Source: a virus. From it: a stretch of DNA of 64,000 nucleotides. Location: positions 62,001 through 126,000 of IMG/VR virus record IMGVR_UViG_3300032249_000542; one strand, 5' to 3'. This document shows, piece by piece, positions 12,538-62,764 of this stretch (position 1 is the first letter of the stretch; each line of letters opens with the position of its first letter). The notes beneath the pieces were generated by a model. The model was given only the letters and a program-made list of their open reading frames with translations. It was not told where the DNA came from and did no database searches. The position numbers and the translations under genes were made by a program.

Positions 12538-12767
12538 TGGCACTAGTTAAAGTAGAAAATCATAATAACTTAGTCCGTGATACTTCTTCTGGTGCTGTTC
12601 TAAATACAGATAGAACCGGATTGCAAGAGTATTATCGTAGGCGTGAGATTGCAAAGAAAGAACTTCTGGAAAGAGAAGAAAATAAAATGCGTTTGCAAAA
12701 AATGGAACAAGAGATGCAAGAGATAAAAGAATTGTTAAAAGAAATTGCAATAATTAGGAAACAATAA
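12537..12767 (+). CDS. Small coiled-coil protein
   Basis: 76 residues. The first 25 or so are extended; residues 27-76 are highly charged and helical (many E, K, R with regular L, M, I), a likely coiled coil. It starts on the last base of the DUF4815 gene stop and ends on the first base of the next gene (TAATG at both ends), so it is translated as part of the structural operon. It may be a small oligomerising virion protein or an assembly helper. I do not recognise a family. Confidence 0.55.
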   Translation: MALVKVENHNNLVRDTSSGAVLNTDRTGLQEYYRRREIAKKELLEREENKMRLQKMEQEMQEIKELLKEIAIIRKQ

Positions 12768-16619: not shown

Positions 16620-19600
16620 ATGGCAACAATATCAACTTTCGCAGCATTTTCATCTAGAGGTTATGGAGCATTTACTTCAGGTAGATTAGTTCCTACAGGA
16701 GGTGACTTTGTTATTGACAATAATGGTGCAGGTAAACGTGTTCACGTATTCCTTGGTGGAGGAACTTTTACAGTACCAGCAGAAACACTACCCACAAATA
16801 GATTTGTTGATTTAGAAATTCTTGTTGTTGGTGGTGGTGGTCCTGCAGGATCATCTGATAGTGGAGGTGGCGGTGGTGGTGGAGGTGCTGTAATTTATGA
16901 TAGTGCATTTAGAATTCCTAAAGGACATTCACTTTCTGTTACAGTAGGTGGTGCGGGGCAAGTAAGTAAAGTAACAGGACTTCATGCTGCTCCTGGTGGT
17001 GGTACCGGTGGAACTTCTGATAGATATAGTAAAGGACAACCCGGTGGTTGTGGTGGTGGAGGATCGTGGCAAAACGCTGGTCCTAACGGAGGAGAGTATA
17101 CATTATCAAATCCTGGAGCAACTTGGGGAACATCTGGACCGGCCGCACCAGCGAATGTAACACCCGCATTTCCAACTCCTGCGATAGGACCAACATATGC
17201 TCCAGGTCTTACTGTTGACAGGACATTTAATGCAGGTTATCATAACAATCGTGGTAATGGTCAATACGGATGTTCATCTGCTACACCAGATTCATCAAAA
17301 GGAATTGCTGGATCAATAACTTCTCCAGCTCCAGGGACATCATATAGTCCAAAAGCATTCAGAATGCGTGGAGGAGGTGGTGCATCTTATGTTGGTGGAC
17401 TTGGAGGACAAGGAATACTAACAGATTTCCGCACCTTAGAAAATGGTACATATGAATTTATACTTGCTGGAGGACATGGTGATCTTCCAAACAATGGTGA
17501 CAGATCATGGAATTCCTTAAAACAAGTTGCTGGTGCTAAAGGATTAAGGGATTCTGGAGTTTATAATGGAACTTTTTATGATGCTGGTGATTCGTACATA
17601 TCATCACCATCACAAGTAAATTGGGAAACTGAATATGATAATCCAGTTCAAAGTTCTGTAGAAAATGCTCCTTCAGGTAGTGAAACGTATGGGTCGGGTG
17701 GAAGTAGAACTCATGAACAAGACGGAGGACGAGGTTTTCTTATTTTAAGATATCTTGATTCTGCGGTAACTAGTGCATCAGCAAATGTTTTTGGTGGAAA
17801 TATTTCAACTTCTGCAAACGGTCAGTACAGATATCATATCTGGTATGGTGATGAAACGAATGATGGTTCTTATAAAGGAACTAGTGCTAATTCACAAGGA
17901 TATATTGCGTTTAATGATGAAGGTAATTATAGAGCAAAGTATTTTAATAGTAATACTGAAGAAGCGTATTATACTGTAAAAGGTAAGGACGGACAACCAC
18001 GAGGTGCAAACACAACACCATTTTATTTCTATCAAGATGTTCCAGCATTTAGTGTGCAATATATGCTTGTGGGTGGCGGTGGTTCTATGGGGACAAGAGG
18101 AAACTCAGTTCATCCTGGAGGATTAAATTACTTAGTTGGAGGAGGGGGTTCTGGAGGAATTGCAATGGGATCCTTTACTACTCCATCTCAGGCACCTTCT
18201 TCATATAATATGCCAGAACTTCCATCATCATTAGCTAATAGTGCTAGTTTTGGTGACCAAATAACCGGTTCGTTTCAACATAGACTTGGGTATATTGAAG
18301 TACGTGCGAATAGTCTATTAACTACCAAATTATCAACAAGTAAATATCTTTCATCGTTAGATAATGATGTTAATGCATATCATAGACAGAGACAAGGAAC
18401 AATAAGAATTCGTGGAAGTGGTAACGAGTCAGCTAGATTGTTACAAAGATTACGCCGTGATACTATTGAAGGATATTTTGCGGATAATGGAAATAATGAT
18501 ACAGGTAAGCGTTACTTAGTTTACGCTTCAAATAATCCCGGAGATCCACAATCTGATGGATGGGGATCTTCTATTAATCTTAATGATGGTTATGAATCGT
18601 ATTTTTACACTAATTATACTAGAGTAAGAGCAGGACGTAAAGCACATATAATGCAAGATGGTAATGATAATAGTGGTCCAACAACTGATTACTCAGAAGG
18701 AAATCCTTCTTGGAACAATAACATAGAATTTGAGTTGGGAACTGGTTCTACCGCAGAAACATTTGTTGCAACACCAACAGGAACTCATCCACAGACTGGT
18801 GAGAGTTACTATAACGCACTAAGAATAACTAGAGCACTTCCAAGAATTTCTAGTGGTGGTGATGACCTTGGAACAAATCGTTATAGTCAATTTCATAGTG
18901 CAATATCAAACTTTAATAGTAGTTCTCCTGGGTGGGAAGTAAGAGATCCACCAATGCAGTCGGGATTGAATAATGTAGATAATCTTTATAATAGAAATTT
19001 TAATATGAATGTTGGTAGTGTTTTTGGTGGTGGAAGAACGCTACGTGGTTCATATGTTCTACAACAAGGTGAAAACACAGCAACTAGAAGATTTGAACAC
19101 ATTAACTGGGATGATGGAAACCACAATGTTTCTGTTGACGCTGGTTGGAAAATAGTTGATGTTAATGCTGGTACTGTCAACAGAATGACTTATACTACTG
19201 AATCCGAAGATACAGTTAGAACCCGTGTTGAAGTTTGGAGAAGGTCATTAAGAAAAATTTGGATAAGACATTTATTTGCGTTTGACACAAGTATCGGTAA
19301 TGGTGGTAAAGGTAATAAACAGCCATCAGCACGTAGACGTTCTGGTGGAACCACTAGTTTACATATGCAAAATGATGATAATCCATCTTATTCAGCTGGT
19401 GGAGGTGGTGCAGGAGGATGGCACACATATTCCAGCGAAGGAGAATCACCGGTTGATGCAGGTGGACCAGAAATAGCAACATCAGACAGAAGTCCTGGAA
19501 CTTATGCTGGAGCAGGTGTAGGAACCAGTCCAATGAATTGGGGAACATTAACTCCAGCAGGTTCTGGTGGTGGTGCTGCACATTCTATAAATGCTCTTAG

Positions 19601-20432
19601 TGAGAGTAGCAATCCAGTCCCTGGTGGTAGTGCTGGTCCTGGTGGAAGCACTTCAGAAACATTAGGAGCATATGCTTCTGGTGGTGGAGGAGGCGGTTCA
19701 ATTGCCGACAGAGATTCTACAGTTAAATTTGGAGGAGCTACAAGAGGTTTAATATTCTCTGGTGGACGAGACTCTAAAAGAAACGCAGGAAATAGTTCAA
19801 ATGGTCATGGTGGTCGTGGATGGTTTGGTAGCACAACCAACTGGCCAGGAACAGTCGGTGTACAAAATATTTCTGGAACAAACTATTATTATTATGTTGA
19901 TGTAAATCAATTTCCACACAATGCACAATTTGCTGCAGGTGGTGGAGGTGGTGCTAGCAATGCCGACGGTGGTGATGGATCTGGAACATCTGGTGGAACT
20001 GGTGGTAACGGAGCAGATGGTGTATCTTATTCATTAACTGGTTACGCTACAATTTATGGACATGGCGGTGGGGGAATGGGAAGATTTGTTAATGGAACTC
20101 CAGGAAGTGGACAACCAGCAGACCCATCAACACAAACTGTTCCTTCGGGAGCTCCTAGTGGTGCTCTATACTTACCTTATGGTGGTGGAGGTGGTTATTC
20201 TGCTGGCAGACAAGAAGGTGGAGGAGCAGGTGGTGGACCAACACAATATTATCCTGGAAGTGGACCTTGGCCAACTGCATATGATGTTTCATTTGGTACT
20301 GCACACATGGATTATATGCGTTATATTAATTCCAATGTCCCTGGTCCACAAAAAGGAGATTTTGGTACTGCATATTCTGGGAAACAAGGTGTAGTAATTA
20401 TTTCTTACGATAGAGCTCCTTACTTCAGTTAA
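16620..20432 (+). CDS. Large glycine-rich adhesin-like protein
   Basis: 1,270 residues. Two long glycine-rich regions (about residues 65-260 and 890-1,250), with runs such as GGGGGGGG and VVGGGGPAG, flank a mixed region with ordinary composition. A further 'MLVGGGGSMGTRG' segment lies near 480. Regions like this in phage tips can pack as polyglycine-II sandwiches with exposed loops, as in the phage S16 gp38 adhesin. The end (GKQGVVIISYDRAPYFS) resembles the 'GVVIIRY' strand that ends the glycine-rich domains of the fibres downstream. It is probably a receptor-binding tip or free adhesin. It has no heptad shaft, so it may bind the end of another fibre, as gp38 does. Confidence 0.6.
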   Translation: MATISTFAAFSSRGYGAFTSGRLVPTGGDFVIDNNGAGKRVHVFLGGGTFTVPAETLPTNRFVDLEILVVGGGGPAGSSDSGGGGGGGGAVIYDSAFRIPKGHSLSVTVGGAGQVSKVTGLHAAPGGGTGGTSDRYSKGQPGGCGGGGSWQNAGPNGGEYTLSNPGATWGTSGPAAPANVTPAFPTPAIGPTYAPGLTVDRTFNAGYHNNRGNGQYGCSSATPDSSKGIAGSITSPAPGTSYSPKAFRMRGGGGASYVGGLGGQGILTDFRTLENGTYEFILAGGHGDLPNNGDRSWNSLKQVAGAKGLRDSGVYNGTFYDAGDSYISSPSQVNWETEYDNPVQSSVENAPSGSETYGSGGSRTHEQDGGRGFLILRYLDSAVTSASANVFGGNISTSANGQYRYHIWYGDETNDGSYKGTSANSQGYIAFNDEGNYRAKYFNSNTEEAYYTVKGKDGQPRGANTTPFYFYQDVPAFSVQYMLVGGGGSMGTRGNSVHPGGLNYLVGGGGSGGIAMGSFTTPSQAPSSYNMPELPSSLANSASFGDQITGSFQHRLGYIEVRANSLLTTKLSTSKYLSSLDNDVNAYHRQRQGTIRIRGSGNESARLLQRLRRDTIEGYFADNGNNDTGKRYLVYASNNPGDPQSDGWGSSINLNDGYESYFYTNYTRVRAGRKAHIMQDGNDNSGPTTDYSEGNPSWNNNIEFELGTGSTAETFVATPTGTHPQTGESYYNALRITRALPRISSGGDDLGTNRYSQFHSAISNFNSSSPGWEVRDPPMQSGLNNVDNLYNRNFNMNVGSVFGGGRTLRGSYVLQQGENTATRRFEHINWDDGNHNVSVDAGWKIVDVNAGTVNRMTYTTESEDTVRTRVEVWRRSLRKIWIRHLFAFDTSIGNGGKGNKQPSARRRSGGTTSLHMQNDDNPSYSAGGGGAGGWHTYSSEGESPVDAGGPEIATSDRSPGTYAGAGVGTSPMNWGTLTPAGSGGGAAHSINALSESSNPVPGGSAGPGGSTSETLGAYASGGGGGGSIADRDSTVKFGGATRGLIFSGGRDSKRNAGNSSNGHGGRGWFGSTTNWPGTVGVQNISGTNYYYYVDVNQFPHNAQFAAGGGGGASNADGGDGSGTSGGTGGNGADGVSYSLTGYATIYGHGGGGMGRFVNGTPGSGQPADPSTQTVPSGAPSGALYLPYGGGGGYSAGRQEGGGAGGGPTQYYPGSGPWPTAYDVSFGTAHMDYMRYINSNVPGPQKGDFGTAYSGKQGVVIISYDRAPYFS

Positions 20433-20435
20433 TAC

Positions 20436-20482
20436 CTTTCTCCCGTTTCAGTTTGACTAAATAGACAATAATCGGGAGAAAG
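20436..20482 (+). promoter_or_regulatory. Perfect 10-bp inverted repeat covering a ribosome binding site
   Basis: CTTTCTCCCG (20,436-20,445) is exactly complementary to CGGGAGAAAG (20,473-20,482), with a 27-base loop. The right arm contains the GGGAGA Shine-Dalgarno of the gene at 20,484 and ends one base before its ATG. No U-run follows, so it is not a normal terminator. The loop holds the late promoter candidate at 20,456. Read-through RNA could fold and hide the site; RNA begun in the loop could not. Confidence 0.6.
20456..20463 (+). promoter_or_regulatory. Late promoter candidate ACTAAATA inside hairpin loop
   Basis: It matches TATAAATA at 6 of 8 positions, and the identical octamer lies before gene 18 (50,090). 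It is 20 bases upstream of the ATG at 20,484, which leaves room for start site and Shine-Dalgarno. Confidence 0.5.
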
Positions 20483-20483
20483 T

Positions 20484-20816
20484 ATGGCAGACTTCGTTGA
20501 ACTCACATTAGAAAAAGGCGCTACGTTTAGTAGTACAATTACAGTTAAAGATGACCAAGGATTGGAACAAAATTTAACTGGATACATCGCACGTTCGCAA
20601 ATGCGTAAATCGTATTATGCGAATTCAAAACATGATTTTACTGTTACAGTTACAGCACCATCAATTGGATTAATTACCATGGGAATGACTGCTGCAAATA
20701 CTTCTAACATATCTCCTGGTCGTTACGTGTATGACGTTGAAATAGAAAATAACTCTGGTGATGTTACAAGAATATTTGAAGGAATCGTAACCGTTCTACC
20801 GAATGTTACCAGATAA
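20484..20816 (+). CDS. Small Ig-like/beta virion protein
   Basis: 110 residues, beta-rich: LEKGATFSSTITVKDDQG, LTGYIARSQMRKSY, SNISPGRYVYDVEIEN, IFEGIVTVLP. This small protein is common in marine and other phages and looks like a single Ig-like domain of the baseplate/fibre-associated BppU type; the exact role is unknown. It has a good Shine-Dalgarno (GGGAGA, 20,474-20,479), unusual for this region, which is part of an inverted repeat. It begins a new run of genes after the glycine-rich adhesin. Confidence 0.6.
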   Translation: MADFVELTLEKGATFSSTITVKDDQGLEQNLTGYIARSQMRKSYYANSKHDFTVTVTAPSIGLITMGMTAANTSNISPGRYVYDVEIENNSGDVTRIFEGIVTVLPNVTR

Positions 20817-21020
20817 ATGGCTAATTATACAGTACAGATAAAACCGAATAAAACTGCGGTTACTTCGGTTCAAATTGCAAAAACTCCAGCGATATATCTT
20901 TCACAGATTGCAGACGTTGACGCCGGTGATCCAGATAATGGAGAAGTCTTAGTGTACGATTCCGTAACGCAAAGATACGTCATTCAAGCAATACCAGTCA
21001 TTAGAGGAGGGACATTCTAA
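20817..21020 (+). CDS. Small fibre-associated protein
   Basis: 67 residues, starting directly after the previous stop and overlapping the next start by one base. It holds the short motif GEVLVYDSVTQRYV and ends RGGTF. Segments like this occur in marine phage collar and fibre proteins. It may be a capping or linking peptide for the next fibre. No function can be assigned. Confidence 0.45.
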   Translation: MANYTVQIKPNKTAVTSVQIAKTPAIYLSQIADVDAGDPDNGEVLVYDSVTQRYVIQAIPVIRGGTF

Positions 21021-23545
21021 TGGCTCTTGGTAATACAACAATACAAATAAAATATTCTACAGCAAATGGTAGACCAGCATCTTTAAATGTTGGCGAACTT
21101 GCTTATTCGTTTGCATCAAATACATTATTCATTGGTACGTCATCAAGCACTACTCTCAATATTGGTGGTCATACGATTGCAAACGTAGTTGAGAATAGAA
21201 CTTCTTTAGCATTACCAAATACTTTAGTTTTTCGTGACCAGTTTGGTAATTTTACTGCAAACGGAATTAATGCTCCTATACTTGGAAACGCAAATACTGC
21301 CACTAGGTTTGAAGTCCCAAGATATATTAATATCTCTGGTGACGTAGGAAATACAAGTAATCTATATGATGGTAGTTCAAATGCAGACATCATTCTAAAA
21401 CTAGATGATACTGGAATTGCTGCTGGAACGTATGGTGGAAATCGTACAGTACCAGTTATTAAATACTACGCAAATGGTATATCATACTTTGCTGGAAACG
21501 TAGCCGTAGATACAACTTTATCATTTGCCGGAGATTTTGGTACTGCAAATTTAGAGACTCGTACTGATACTCTTACGTTTGGTGGTGGTGATGGTATCAT
21601 TACACATGCACATGATTCAAATAATGTTGTAGATATTTTTGTTGATGAAACCGTTGTTAAGACAGATAGAACAGACCAAATAATTCAAGGTAATATTGTT
21701 ATTACTGGTAACTTGAATGTTCAAGGTAACACGTTATACACTCAAACTGAAACAGTATTAATTGAAGATAATATCATCACACTTAATGCGGCGATTGGTC
21801 AGGCATCACTTCCGATTAGAGATGCTGGTATTGAAATTGACCGTGGGTCATTACCAAACTCTCAGATTATTTGGAATGAGACAGTTGATCGTTGGACATA
21901 TACGCATGATGGGTCTATATATTACAACATTGGTTCTGTACAAAATGCATTTGTAACATTTACTGCAAATGGAACACCAGTAACTCCACAAAGTAATAAT
22001 GACACATTAACTATTAACGGTCTAAGTGGTATTCTTATTACCGCTAATGATAGTTCAAATACTATCAACATTGGTTTAACAGAACTTGCACAAGGTAACT
22101 CAGGATCACAATTATATGTTGCACCAAATGGTGACGATTCATATGATGGTTATGCAATCTCACGTCCTAAGAGAACAGTTCGTGCTGCTGTAAATGCGGC
22201 ACGCCCTGGAACAAGAATATTCATTGCTTCAGGAATATATGAAGAAGTTACACCAATCATTGTTCCACAAAGAGTTGAAGTTTCTGGTGATGGTGAGCGT
22301 TCAACAATTATTAGACCGGTCGATCCAACAAAAGATATATTCTGGTTGAACAATAATTGTTTGATTACCAACATGGGGTTTGAGAATTACACAGCATCAG
22401 CATGTGCGTTTCCTGAACTTACAATTCGTTCCGCAACTGCACAGGGTGGAACTGCAAACACAATAACACTTGATTCCAGTTCTGATTCATTGACAAGTTA
22501 TTACAATGAAATGCAAATTGAAATTCTTTCTGGAACTGGTTCAGGACAAACCAAAACAATATCTGCATATGACGGTTCTACTAAAATTGCAACAGTAGAT
22601 TCTGCTTGGTCAGTTATTCCTAACAGCACTTCTGTATTTAAAGTTTCTATTCCTAGAAGGTCAACTCCTGCAGCAAATACTGCACGTTGGACAACCTTTA
22701 TTACTGCATCACCATACGTTTATGTTTGTTCATCAAGAACAACAACTGGTACCGGACTAAAAGTAGATGGTGCTCGTGCAACTGGTAATAAGAGTATGGT
22801 GTCTGCACAGTTCACTCAAGTTAATACTGGAGGAATTGGATTCCATGTATTGAATGATGGTTACGCACAGTTAGTTTCTATGTTTAGTATTTTTTGTGAT
22901 ACTGGATTCTTAGCAGAGAGTGGTGGTACTGCATCAATGGGTAACTGTAACGTCAACTTTGGTAATCGTGGATTAAAATCAAATGGTCGTGGTGCATTAA
23001 TAATGACTGGAACATTGAGCGCTAATGGTATTTTTAACGACTTTACACTCAATCTAAATAACATAACAGTTAATACAGATCCATACATGAGTGTTTCTGC
23101 AAACGTACCTTATGTTGGTTTGATTGGTTACGTTGATGGTGACGCATCGGATACATATTATTATGTTACATCATCTACTGTTCCATCTAGTGGAAATACA
23201 TTAACAACAATAAAAAATTCATTAGACAATACTTTTATTTCTGGAACAACAATTAGATTTTATCAACAGTCTCAGCTTCGTGCATCAGGTCAGACGTTTG
23301 AATTTGTTGGTGCTGGAACATCATTATCAACTGCACTACCGAGAAATGGCGGGATACCAAATAGTGAAGCACAAATTGTAAGATCAAATGGCGGTGCGGT
23401 ATTCTGTACTTCAACAAATGAAAGCGGAGATTTTCAAGTGTCTGATTTAATTATCGAACAAACTACTGGTACTATATCAGGTAGAACATTCAGTAAAAGT
23501 TTATATGCAGAACTGACTCCGTTTATTCTAGCATTGGAAGGCTAA
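21020..23545 (+). CDS. Tail fibre with pectin-lyase-like beta-helix domain
   Basis: 841 residues. The N-terminus (ALGNTTIQIKYSTANGRP, LNVGELAYSF) is the usual head of marine T4-like fibres. Residues 225-310 hold a fibre module (NIITLNAAIGQ, AGIEIDRGSLPN) found again in the fibre at 41,340. Residues about 363-440 start a right-handed beta-helix (LYVAPNGDDSYDGYAISRPK, RIFIASGIYEE, EVSGDGERSTII), interrupted near 475-545 by the 'SGTGSGQTKTISAYDGSTK' module, and resuming to about 700. This fold often binds or cleaves surface glycans in phage tailspikes; no catalytic residues can be named. The C-terminal 140 residues are probably the trimer end. Confidence 0.72.
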   Translation: MALGNTTIQIKYSTANGRPASLNVGELAYSFASNTLFIGTSSSTTLNIGGHTIANVVENRTSLALPNTLVFRDQFGNFTANGINAPILGNANTATRFEVPRYINISGDVGNTSNLYDGSSNADIILKLDDTGIAAGTYGGNRTVPVIKYYANGISYFAGNVAVDTTLSFAGDFGTANLETRTDTLTFGGGDGIITHAHDSNNVVDIFVDETVVKTDRTDQIIQGNIVITGNLNVQGNTLYTQTETVLIEDNIITLNAAIGQASLPIRDAGIEIDRGSLPNSQIIWNETVDRWTYTHDGSIYYNIGSVQNAFVTFTANGTPVTPQSNNDTLTINGLSGILITANDSSNTINIGLTELAQGNSGSQLYVAPNGDDSYDGYAISRPKRTVRAAVNAARPGTRIFIASGIYEEVTPIIVPQRVEVSGDGERSTIIRPVDPTKDIFWLNNNCLITNMGFENYTASACAFPELTIRSATAQGGTANTITLDSSSDSLTSYYNEMQIEILSGTGSGQTKTISAYDGSTKIATVDSAWSVIPNSTSVFKVSIPRRSTPAANTARWTTFITASPYVYVCSSRTTTGTGLKVDGARATGNKSMVSAQFTQVNTGGIGFHVLNDGYAQLVSMFSIFCDTGFLAESGGTASMGNCNVNFGNRGLKSNGRGALIMTGTLSANGIFNDFTLNLNNITVNTDPYMSVSANVPYVGLIGYVDGDASDTYYYVTSSTVPSSGNTLTTIKNSLDNTFISGTTIRFYQQSQLRASGQTFEFVGAGTSLSTALPRNGGIPNSEAQIVRSNGGAVFCTSTNESGDFQVSDLIIEQTTGTISGRTFSKSLYAELTPFILALEG

Positions 23546-28747: not shown

Positions 28748-31700
28748 TGGCTGATTTAAGAGACTATACAAAAAAGAACCCCATATTTGTTGGAACAGAT
28801 GGTATTAGATTACCAATTGGAACAGGCGCACAAAAAGGTGCGTCATCAAATGTTGCAGGTACTCTACGTTACAACACAGATATTAGTAGTATAGAATTTT
28901 TTACTCCATCGGGTTGGATTCCCCTTGGAGCTCCACCAGCTATAACTACAGTAACTCCTTCAACTTTTAATGGTACATCTGGATCAGAATTTACAATTAA
29001 CGGTTCAAACTTTAGTTCAGATGTTCAGGTGTATTTTGTTACATCAAATGGAACTAACATATTAGCATCAACTGTTACGTATATTGGTAATTCACAATTA
29101 AAAGCAACTACTCCTAGAAATATCACAGTACAAGAAGAACCGATTAGTGTTAAAGTAAATCAACCTTCGGGAATTTTTACAAAACCAGATTGTATTGATG
29201 CTGGTGGTCTACCGAGTTGGATTACTACAGCAGGAACATTAGGAAGTATATTTGGTGCAAATACAGTTAATGTATATGTGTCTGCAACGGACCCTGAAGG
29301 TTCATCAATATCATATCAAATAACATCAGGTTCATTGCCTGCAGGTTTAAGTTTAACTTCGGCAAATGGATTAGTTCAAGGTCTTGCAAGTTCAGTCTTA
29401 GCAAACACAACTTATAATTTTACAATTAAAGCAAACGACACGGCAACTAATAATACTGACAGAGCATTCAGTTATACTGTATTAAATCGTGCTCCTGTAA
29501 TCAATACTGCTGCAGGAAGTTTAGGAACAATCTATTCTGGAAATGCAGCTTCGGCAACAATTTCTGCATACGATCCAGACGGTGGAAGTATAACATTTGC
29601 TGTTGCTTCTGGATCATTACCAGCAAATAGTTCATTAGGAACTGCAAACGGAGTCATACAGGGAACTCCGATTCTTGTAACTACCAATACAACATATACA
29701 TTCTCAATTAGTACAACTGATGAAGGTAGTTTATCTGCATCAAATACCTACACATATACTGTATTAAATCGTCCTCCTTTGTGGAATACCAATCCGACAT
29801 TGACAACTATTAATGGTGCTGACCCTTACACACCAATTACAATTAACGCATACGATCCAGACGGAGCGAGTATAACATATTCTTTAACTTCTGGTGCTGT
29901 TCCAAGTGGATTAACATTTGTTACTGCAAATGCTACACTTACTGGAACACCTGATGAAGTTGAATCTAATACCACAAGTACATTTGTTGTTACTGCAACC
30001 GACGTTGGTTCAGATGCAAATGCAAGAACATTTAGTTTAACAGTTACACCAATTGTTGATGCTCAGTTTTCTAACACAGTTTTATTATTGCATGGTGATG
30101 GAAATACTTCAATTAGAGATGCCTCATCAGATAATCGCCCATTAACTGTTTTTGGAGATGTAAAGACAACTAACTTTAGTCCATTTTCAAATACTGCATA
30201 TGGTTCATATAGTGGAAATTTTGGTATGGCTGCAGGCAACTTGTACTATCCTGATAGTGATGCATATACATTAGGTAGTGCGGATTTTGCAATTGAATTC
30301 TGGTGGTATCCTACTAACATATCTTCAGAAACAGATATGTTTGGTCAATGGTCAAGTGGTGGTAATGATGAATCGTGGTTAATACATTGCCGTTCATCAA
30401 CCTTTGGACTGTCTTATGTAACGGATGGTTCATCTGACATTTATGTAGAAAGTGGAACTAAACCAACATTAGGTCGTTGGAATCATATTGTAGTATGTAG
30501 AAATAGTAATACCATTTCCATTTTTATAGATGGAGTGAGAACAGCTACTGGTTCTGAGTCAGGAGCGATTAGTAATTCTACTAGAGTGTGGTGCGTGGGT
30601 GGACGTGGAGGAAGTTCATATGGAAGAATAAATGGAATGATTTCTGATTTCCGTATCGTAAAAGGTAACGGACTCAGTCCATATAATGCAACTTCTTCTA
30701 CATTAACTGTTCCAACTGCACCGTTGCAAGATATTGCTGGAACAAGTTTTCATATCTTTAATAGAGCAAGAGGATTTACAGATACTATAACTGGGAATAT
30801 TCCTACGGTAGTTGATGCAGTATTATTAACAGCAAAAAGTCCATTTGGAAACACAGAAGCAGATACTACCACAGGATCAATGTATTTTGATGGTTCAGGA
30901 GATTATCTCAGTCTAGGAGCACCATACAATTTTGGTTCAAATAACTTTACTGTAGAAGGTTGGTTTTATTTAACCACAATATCTGGAACTCAATCACTTT
31001 GGGGATCATCTAATGGTGGTGGAGGACAATCTAAACTTCAAGTATATGTCTCAAGTGGAAATATTACTTTAGATTTTAATGGAAGTGCTGTTGTTGCAGC
31101 TACAGCAGCAACATATCTAGTTCCTGGCACATGGAATCATGTTGCGTATTGTAGAGGTGGAACCGGATCTAATCAAACCGCAGTTTTTATAAATGGTGTT
31201 CGTGCTGCGGTTGGTACATTAGGAAGTCAAACTGGAATTACCGATCATTTTAAAATTGGAAATAGTGAAGCTGGTGTAATTGCTGCGTCTTACATTTCTA
31301 ACTTTAGAATTGTTGATGGTACTGATGTTTATGGGTATACAAACACAACATATACTGTCCCAACAACTCCATTAACAAATATAACGAACACAAAATTATT
31401 AACTCTACAGAATCGTCAACCACACAACAATCACGGATTTATTGATAGTTCTAGAACTAAGAGTTTAATTACAAGAAACGGTAATCCTTCACAAGGTACG
31501 TTTACTCCGTTTAGTGCTGACTCTGGAAAATGGAGTGCATATTTTAATGGAAGTAGTGGAGTAAGATTTCCAGATAGTTCTGTTTTCTCAATGGGAACAA
31601 ATCCATTTACGATTGAAGCTTGGGTGTATGTAACAAAGACACAAGGAGCTGGATATTCTATTATTAGTCAATGGATAGACGGAAATGATAGTAACAGTTC

Positions 31701-59187: not shown

Positions 59188-59225
59188 TCAGTAGACAAAA
59201 CATAATAATAACTATAAGATGTTTT

Positions 59226-59253
59226 AGAGGGATCTTCGGATCCCTCTTTTTTT
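59226..59253 (+). terminator. Strong UUCG rho-independent terminator after gene 23
   Basis: Perfect 9-bp stem AGAGGGATC / GATCCCTCT (59,226-59,234 and 59,239-59,247) closed by a TTCG tetraloop and followed by a T-run to 59,253. It ends the capsid transcript. Confidence 0.93.
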
Positions 59254-59257
59254 CGCA

Positions 59258-59265
59258 CATAAATA
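59258..59265 (+). promoter_or_regulatory. Late promoter candidate CATAAATA after the capsid terminator
   Basis: Seven of eight bases match TATAAATA. It lies directly after the terminator and 36 bases before the ATG at 59,302, so the tail-tube-fold gene gets its own late transcript. Confidence 0.6.
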
Positions 59266-59301
59266 TATGCATCAGTTTCACTCAACCATAGAACATAACA
59301 T

Positions 59302-59829
59302 ATGAGTTCAAGTTTAATAGGCGGAGAAGGTACGTCATTCTTACATGGGAATAAGTTTCAATTAAACTTTGCCCGTGTACCATATCTTCAATATTTCTGT
59401 CAAGCAGTCAATCTCCCAGGGATATCTCTTGGTGAGATACAAAGGAACACCCCTTTTGTTGACATCTATTCTCCAGGTGAAAAGGCAATCTATGATATAT
59501 TGAATGTAACTTTTATTGTTGATGAGAATTTAAAGTCTTGGTGGGAAATACATGACTGGATTCGTGCAATGACATTCCCAACTACCTTTGAAGAATATAA
59601 AGGTTTAAACCAACTATCACCTCTTGCAGATAAAGACTTTCCGCAATTCTCTGACGCACATTTAAGTATTTTAACAACGGCAAACAATCCAAACTATCGT
59701 GTTAAGTTTGTGGATTGTTTCCCAATATCATTATCGTCTATAATGTTTTCCGCAATGGATACTCCAGACAATATCATTACTGCCGATGCATCATTCAGAT
59801 TTTCTTATTTTAATATTGACAAAATGTAA
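59302..59829 (+). CDS. Tail-tube-fold protein (gp19/gp54-like); candidate tube initiator or connector
   Basis: 175 residues. It follows the same strand pattern as gp19: FQLNFARVPYLQYFCQAVNLPGISLGE compares with LTFMCKTAQLPGSTIG, and YDILNVTFIVDENLKSWWEIHDWIRAM with DWTISIINDEDFVIRNAFERWM. So it belongs to the tail-tube fold superfamily, which in T4 includes gp19, gp48 and gp54. It may start the tube on the baseplate (gp54-like). Alternatively, marine T4-like phages often have gene 3 (tube terminator, 176 residues in T4) near here, so a gp3 role is possible from position and length. The sequence fits the tube fold better. Confidence 0.65.
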   Translation: MSSSLIGGEGTSFLHGNKFQLNFARVPYLQYFCQAVNLPGISLGEIQRNTPFVDIYSPGEKAIYDILNVTFIVDENLKSWWEIHDWIRAMTFPTTFEEYKGLNQLSPLADKDFPQFSDAHLSILTTANNPNYRVKFVDCFPISLSSIMFSAMDTPDNIITADASFRFSYFNIDKM

Positions 59830-62224: not shown

Positions 62225-62764
62225 ATGGCGAACGCAAAACATTATGTAAATAACACAGACTTCCTGAATGCTCTTATAGAGTATAAAGCTAAATGTGATG
62301 AGGCAAAGGCAAACAATAAACCAGATCCACAAATTCCGAATTACATTGGAGAATGTTTTCTAAAGATCGGTGAACACTTGTCTAGAAAACCAAACTTTAT
62401 ATCTTATTCTTTCCGAGATGAGATGATTGCCGACGGTATTGAAAATTGTTTAATGTATTTCAGAAACTTTGATCCTGATAAATCAAAGAATCCATTTGCA
62501 TACTTTACTCAGATTATTTACTATGCATTCTTGCGAAGGATTATGAAAGAGAAGAAACAGCTATATGTGAAGTATAAAGCAACAGAACAGTTTGGTATTC
62601 TGGATGAAGCAGAAATGTTTGAAGATGAGAACGGTAACTATAAACAGTTCGAGATGTATGAAAATATATCTGAATTCATTCAAACATTTGAGGAAAACAA
62701 GAAGAAGAAAAAGGCAAAAGTGATAAAAGGAGTTGACAACTTCATAGAAAATGATATAGAATAA
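62225..62764 (+). CDS. gp55: Late transcription sigma factor gp55
   Basis: 179 residues (T4 gp55: 185). The T4 core is readable: N-terminal [17 protein letters not shown] (T4 'YVNNKELLQAIIDWK'), [49 protein letters not shown] (T4 '[48 protein letters not shown]'). It redirects host RNA polymerase to TATAAATA late promoters. In T4 a C-terminal hydrophobic segment binds the sliding clamp; the end here ([21 protein letters not shown]) differs, though VDNFIE could serve. Confidence 0.93.
   Translation: [179 protein letters not shown]

Follow-up and report, generated by a model that had tools for sequence, protein, structure and literature searches.

Why should the ribosome-binding site of a tail-fibre assembly gene be placed inside one arm of an inverted repeat, with a late promoter motif in the loop between the two arms? 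This question was raised by a 64,000-nucleotide stretch (the window), corresponding to bases 62001–126000 of a 169,777-base virus record that contained T4-like head and tail genes and belonged to a Kyanoviridae-like phage. The arms CTTTCTCCCG and CGGGAGAAAG composed a perfect 10-bp stem with a 27-nt loop, ACTAAATA was located at 20456–20463 within this loop, and the whole structure lay between the TAA stop codon (20430–20432) of the upstream 1270-aa gene and the ATG start codon (20484) of the 110-aa gene (Table 1). The sequence-only reading of this DNA had described a perfect 10-bp inverted repeat before the gene at 20,484, with GGGAGA in its right arm and a late promoter-like octamer in its loop: coordinates and sequence of the repeat were exact, GGGAGA was found at 20474–20479, and ACTAAATA was present, the 7-mer CTAAATA being a better description of it than the degenerate T4 octamer. 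The structure was probably a cis-acting translational switch set by the RNA start point: the 10-bp stem would hide GGGAGA on read-through RNA, while late RNA from the loop promoter would escape, and the fibre gene would be insulated.

Table 1. Coordinates and sequences of the hairpin element, the genes around it, the late sigma factor gene, and the site-hiding stems of relatives
Feature	Position in window	Strand	Sequence	Basis
Upstream gene for a putative adhesin/fibre protein of 1270 aa, rich in glycine	16620..20432	+		ORF; weak PHROG 2295 and Gly_rich_2 matches
Left arm (putative anti-ribosome-site arm)	20436-20445	+	CTTTCTCCCG	Sequence; identical in L003 and L004
Late promoter (well supported), in hairpin loop	20457-20463	+	CTAAATA	Aeh1 motif match, genome bias, presence in most relatives
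Predicted +1	20469	+		Aeh1 spacing, C20457 = -12
Right arm	20473-20482	+	CGGGAGAAAG	Sequence; recovered by genome-wide inverted-repeat search
Shine-Dalgarno site, inside right arm	20474-20479	+	GGGAGA	Sequence, computed accessibility
Putatively controlled gene of the tail-fibre assembly family (110 aa)	20484..20816	+		PHROG 1084, PHROG 3304 'L-shaped tail fiber protein assembly'
Genes for a 67-aa protein and for a tail fibre protein of 841 aa, presumed on the same transcript as the 110-aa gene	20817..23545	+		ORFs, PHROG matches
gp55, late sigma factor	62225..62764	+		58% identity to P-HM1 gp55, E=2e-53
Stem of L113			AATTCCCCTTTT/AAAAGGGGAATT	
Stems of L106 and L256			CCCCTTAT/ATAAGGGG	
Stem of L105			CTCCTGTTT/AAACAGGAG	
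Stem of L355			CTCCCGTTTT/AAAACGGGAG	

The hairpin had an MFE of −17.7 to −18.1 kcal/mol (z ~ −3), and 0–3 of 200 shuffles were equally good. When the ribosome site was held fixed and the upstream region was shuffled, a perfect stem of at least 10 bp on the ribosome site arose in 0.04% of shuffles (p = 0.0004). Among the 179 Shine-Dalgarno starts of the ~170-kb genome, the window element had 10 bp of stem on the ribosome site, two other starts had 7 bp, and the rest had at most 6 bp; the window element also had the strongest arm-to-ribosome-site duplex among the 18 late-promoter starts of this genome (−17.4 kcal/mol; p = 0.003 by shuffle). Rfam covariance models gave no match up to E = 1 within 20300–20600. 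The window hairpin was ruled out as an intrinsic terminator, since its stem was followed by TATGGCAG, with no T run directly 3′ of it. Another inverted repeat was observed outside the window at G000 29852–29906: it had 13-bp arms (TGTTTACCGTTAT/ATAACGGTAAACA), carried GTAAATA in its loop, and lay 5′ of a 354-aa frame.

The T4 late promoter is TATAAATA at −13 to −6, its Aeh1 counterpart is CTAAATA starting from −12 (PMC1524935), and the late promoter given for cyanophages is NATAAATA (PMC2984593). Both ATAAATA and CTAAATA were in use in the studied genome: the plus strand contained 42 copies of [AC]TAAATA, 14 of them intergenic, and the minus strand contained 6, of which 1 was intergenic, the shuffled expectations for intergenic copies being 3.6 and 2.5, respectively, and the motif stood before the tail sheath gene, among others. 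[ACT]TAAATA was located 10–45 nt 5′ of the start codon in 326 of the 371 relatives of the 110-aa gene. The phage encoded gp45 in addition to gp55, and thus the T4 late system was present. On these sequence features, the assignment of CTAAATA at 20457–20463 as a late promoter was well supported, and transcription would start near 20469, which is 3′ of the left arm and the promoter and 5′ of the right arm (beginning at 20473). A separate gene cluster at G000 ~128329–131854 (L011:8329–11854, outside the window) comprised a peptide deformylase, a DNA methyltransferase, and a protein related to beta-glucosyl-HMC-alpha-glucosyltransferase, a hint that the phage DNA may be modified.

Computed folding set the two transcripts apart: GGGAGA had a mean unpaired probability of 0.00 in read-through RNA versus 0.58–0.62 in RNA starting at 20468 or 20470, and the ribosome site of L003 gave 0.00 and 0.67, respectively. 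The same program gave −14.9 kcal/mol for the full leader of T4 gene e, weaker than the stem of the window, and an unstructured late leader; T4 soc displayed no stem under the measure used, probably because the nearest TTAAATA was chosen as its promoter. The sequence-only reading had proposed that the site is hidden in RNA from upstream and open in RNA begun in the loop, and that T4 uses this design for gene e; the predicted values (0.00 versus ~0.6) agreed with the former, the same fold of the e leader agreed with the latter, and the mechanism as a whole was supported by the sequence, all of its predictions at that level being borne out.

The proposed course of events is as follows. Read-through RNA from the 1270-aa gene would contain both arms, the 10-bp stem would form and hide GGGAGA, and the 110-aa tail-fibre assembly gene would then be poorly translated; the gp55-type promoter CTAAATA would start RNA at ~20469, 3′ of the left arm, and this RNA would form no stem and be translated. 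Expression of the first fibre gene would be tied to its own late promoter and shielded from upstream transcription. The sequence itself shows the stem and where it sits, the promoter motif, the gene for the late sigma factor, the accessibilities predicted by folding, and the conservation in close relatives; the true position of the start, repression in infected cells, and a purpose as dose insulation are inferred. The plus-strand intergenic space before the 110-aa gene contained no terminator-like site, and thus read-through was plausible. The 1270-aa gene belonged to a cluster of structural genes in which late motifs occurred at 12600 and 15510, and the upstream messages were probably late too; the element would therefore be an insulator, not a timer, and a separation of dose was more likely than a separation of early and late time. 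Another putatively insulated boundary lay at 59200–59302 of the window, where an intrinsic terminator (agagggatcttcggatccctcttttttt) was immediately followed by the late promoter ATAAATA (59259) and then by a gene at 59302.

Megablast yielded no close DNA match among annotated phages, and the comparison was therefore based on IMG/VR loci (L numbers); the relatives of the 110-aa protein were in Kyanoviridae phages infecting Pelagibacter, Methylophilales, Prochlorococcus, and Synechococcus. The conservation of the two arms, put forward as a check in the sequence-only reading, was partial: (i) in L003 and L004, the two nearest relatives (95% protein identity), the left arm was unchanged and the stem was still 10 bp, its outer C-G pair being gone and an inner U-A pair being added, and a true double compensatory change between the window and L003 was found in no pair; and (ii) in L099–L103 (66–72% protein identity), with which further L099 relatives concurred, the window-type stem was absent despite the retention of gene and promoter, so that the refuting outcome named in that reading (arms lost while the gene is kept) did occur in part, at this larger distance. 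Relatives with ~50% identity carried site-hiding stems with other arm sequences at the same place (Table 1), and such stems were also found in L149, L334, L225, and L228. L113 and L180 differed by one C-G pair changed to U-A, provided that the arms were read ungapped, while L225, L228, L334, and L355 shared the right-arm core and had left-arm C/U differences that preserved G-U pairs; the window-type stems failed to align in one register.

Across 107 nonredundant upstream regions, arm-to-site duplexes reaching −14.5 kcal/mol were found in 8 versus 1.19 expected (maximum 5 in 300 shuffles), and promoter-enclosing stems reaching −17 in 24 versus 8.2 expected (maximum 15); a strong site-hiding stem was absent in most of these relatives. 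As controls, gene 23 upstream regions were dropped (promoter in range in 4 of 35) and replaced by other late genes of the same loci, which reached −14.5 in 2 of 56 cases versus 0.17 expected, and thus the design may extend beyond the 110-aa gene. A different arrangement was observed in L262, L266, L270, L274, L275, L282–L284, and L287, where a left arm (AACCCTTATAAAT) overlapped the late promoter and paired with ATTTATAAGGGTT at the ribosome site.

The gene adjoining the 110-aa gene upstream varied widely among relatives while the late promoter stayed, which marked this site as a gene-exchange boundary, and 16 of the 107 nonredundant relatives harbored an intrinsic terminator 5′ of the promoter. 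L357 and L358 were alike from promoter to start codon, the former having a terminator and no stem and the latter having the stem AACTCCT/AGGAGTT and no terminator. In L109 (~1040–1125) and L482 (~1440–1495), a terminator stem (AAAAACCTTCTCA ... TGAGAAGGTTTTTTT in L482) plus T run had the late promoter CTAAATA as its loop, with the same gene 3′; in the L361–L421 clade (e.g., L370:1430–1475), CCCCTCGCTAAATAGTGAGGGG was followed by a T-rich stretch, and the late promoter again formed the hairpin loop. For this terminator-like clade (A5), a covariation count gave 99.3% paired cells and one pair changed on both sides, only weakly above the shuffle control. RNA begun in the terminator loop would be without the left arm and hence would escape termination. 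Terminators and site-hiding stems were not found to exclude each other (Fisher p = 1.0), so the argument that one can replace the other draws on individual natural pairs, e.g., L357/L358. These observations suggest selection for insulating the 110-aa gene from its upstream neighbours by more than one means. A tentative extension, possible although not the likelier outcome, is that Kyanoviridae-like phages have a general insulating design before the fibre-assembly gene, in which the late promoter lies in a hairpin formed by read-through RNA alone and there are two outputs: (i) a hidden ribosome site (the window, L105, L106, L113, L149, and L355) and (ii) an intrinsic terminator whose loop carries the promoter (L109, L482, and L361–L421). 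No description of the latter version was found in the literature searched.

Counting against the hiding switch were the loss of the stem at 66–72% identity, the lack of a true double compensatory change between the window and L003, the absence of a strong site-hiding stem in most of the 107 nonredundant relatives, and the overlap that a ribosome ending at 20432 would have with the left arm. The upstream stop is 3 nt 5′ of this arm, and a terminating ribosome may therefore open the stem, which made translational coupling the main rival: a ribosome stopping at 20430–20432 would cover much of the left arm and free the site, keeping both proteins in proportion on read-through RNA. Coupling was nevertheless judged unlikely; the start codon is 51 nt past the stop, a long distance for re-initiation, the loop has its own late promoter, which would bypass coupling, and L113, L180, L181, and L228 have the stem but no long-frame upstream stop within 150 nt, so the stem does not depend on it.

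The position of the hairpin directly 3′ of the upstream stop would also suit a role in the upstream adhesin message (as RNA end, processing site, or stabilising stem), the overlap with the ribosome site being incidental, and intrinsic terminators are common among relatives at the same boundary; this role was considered quite improbable, given the lack of a T run 3′ of the stem and the overlap of stem and ribosome site in several relatives whose arms are unrelated. Chance or neutral complementarity, by which pyrimidine-rich DNA past the stop would match a purine-rich ribosome site, would account for the absence of the stem in the 66–72% identity relatives, and the per-start p of 0.0004 became ~0.07 after correction for 179 starts; it was assigned very little probability, because both 95% relatives keep the stem with a shifted pair, the late promoter falls exactly within the loop, and the wider family exceeds shuffles. 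The switch set by the RNA start point remained the preferred reading.

In T4 gene e, for which the mechanism has been demonstrated, a stem hides the ribosome site on the longer RNA, the promoter is at or in the loop, and the late RNA is without the 5′ part of the stem, with a reported ~100-fold repression; the cyanophages examined in the same review were listed as without gene e (PMC3014915). I-TevI, I-TevII, I-TevIII, segB, Aeh1 mobE, and T4 soc, 49, 25, and 26 are further cases in which read-through RNA hides the ribosome site and late RNA escapes (PMC2988022, PMC3014915). By sequence, the window element resembled that of gene e in having its ribosome site paired in a stable read-through stem and a promoter so placed that late RNA would omit the 5′ arm, and its membership in the T4 e/I-TevI kind was supported. 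Differences from gene e were also displayed: the window gene is for tail-fibre assembly instead of lysis and belongs to another phage family, the arm sequences are unrelated, the promoter is CTAAATA instead of TATAAATA, and the upstream gene is apparently structural and hence not clearly early, whereas the T4 device separates early from late. The I-TevI group consists mostly of homing endonucleases in early or middle units, while the window element precedes a structural gene where two apparently late units adjoin; its promoter is the same 7-mer as the Aeh1 late promoter, whereas cyanophages have been described with NATAAATA.

The literature searched contained no earlier account of this kind of element for Kyanoviridae, although its partial coverage makes this weak evidence of novelty; what is added to the known kind is the gene, the phage family, and those relatives in which a terminator loop carries the promoter. 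The stems with differing arms, together with the natural pair L357/L358 (terminator present versus absent), provide material for a direct test. The finding would extend a T4 regulatory trick to a tail-fibre gene of an abundant aquatic T4-like group, and a built-in insulator at a place where the upstream gene varies would permit the exchange of neighbours with the fibre operon undisturbed.
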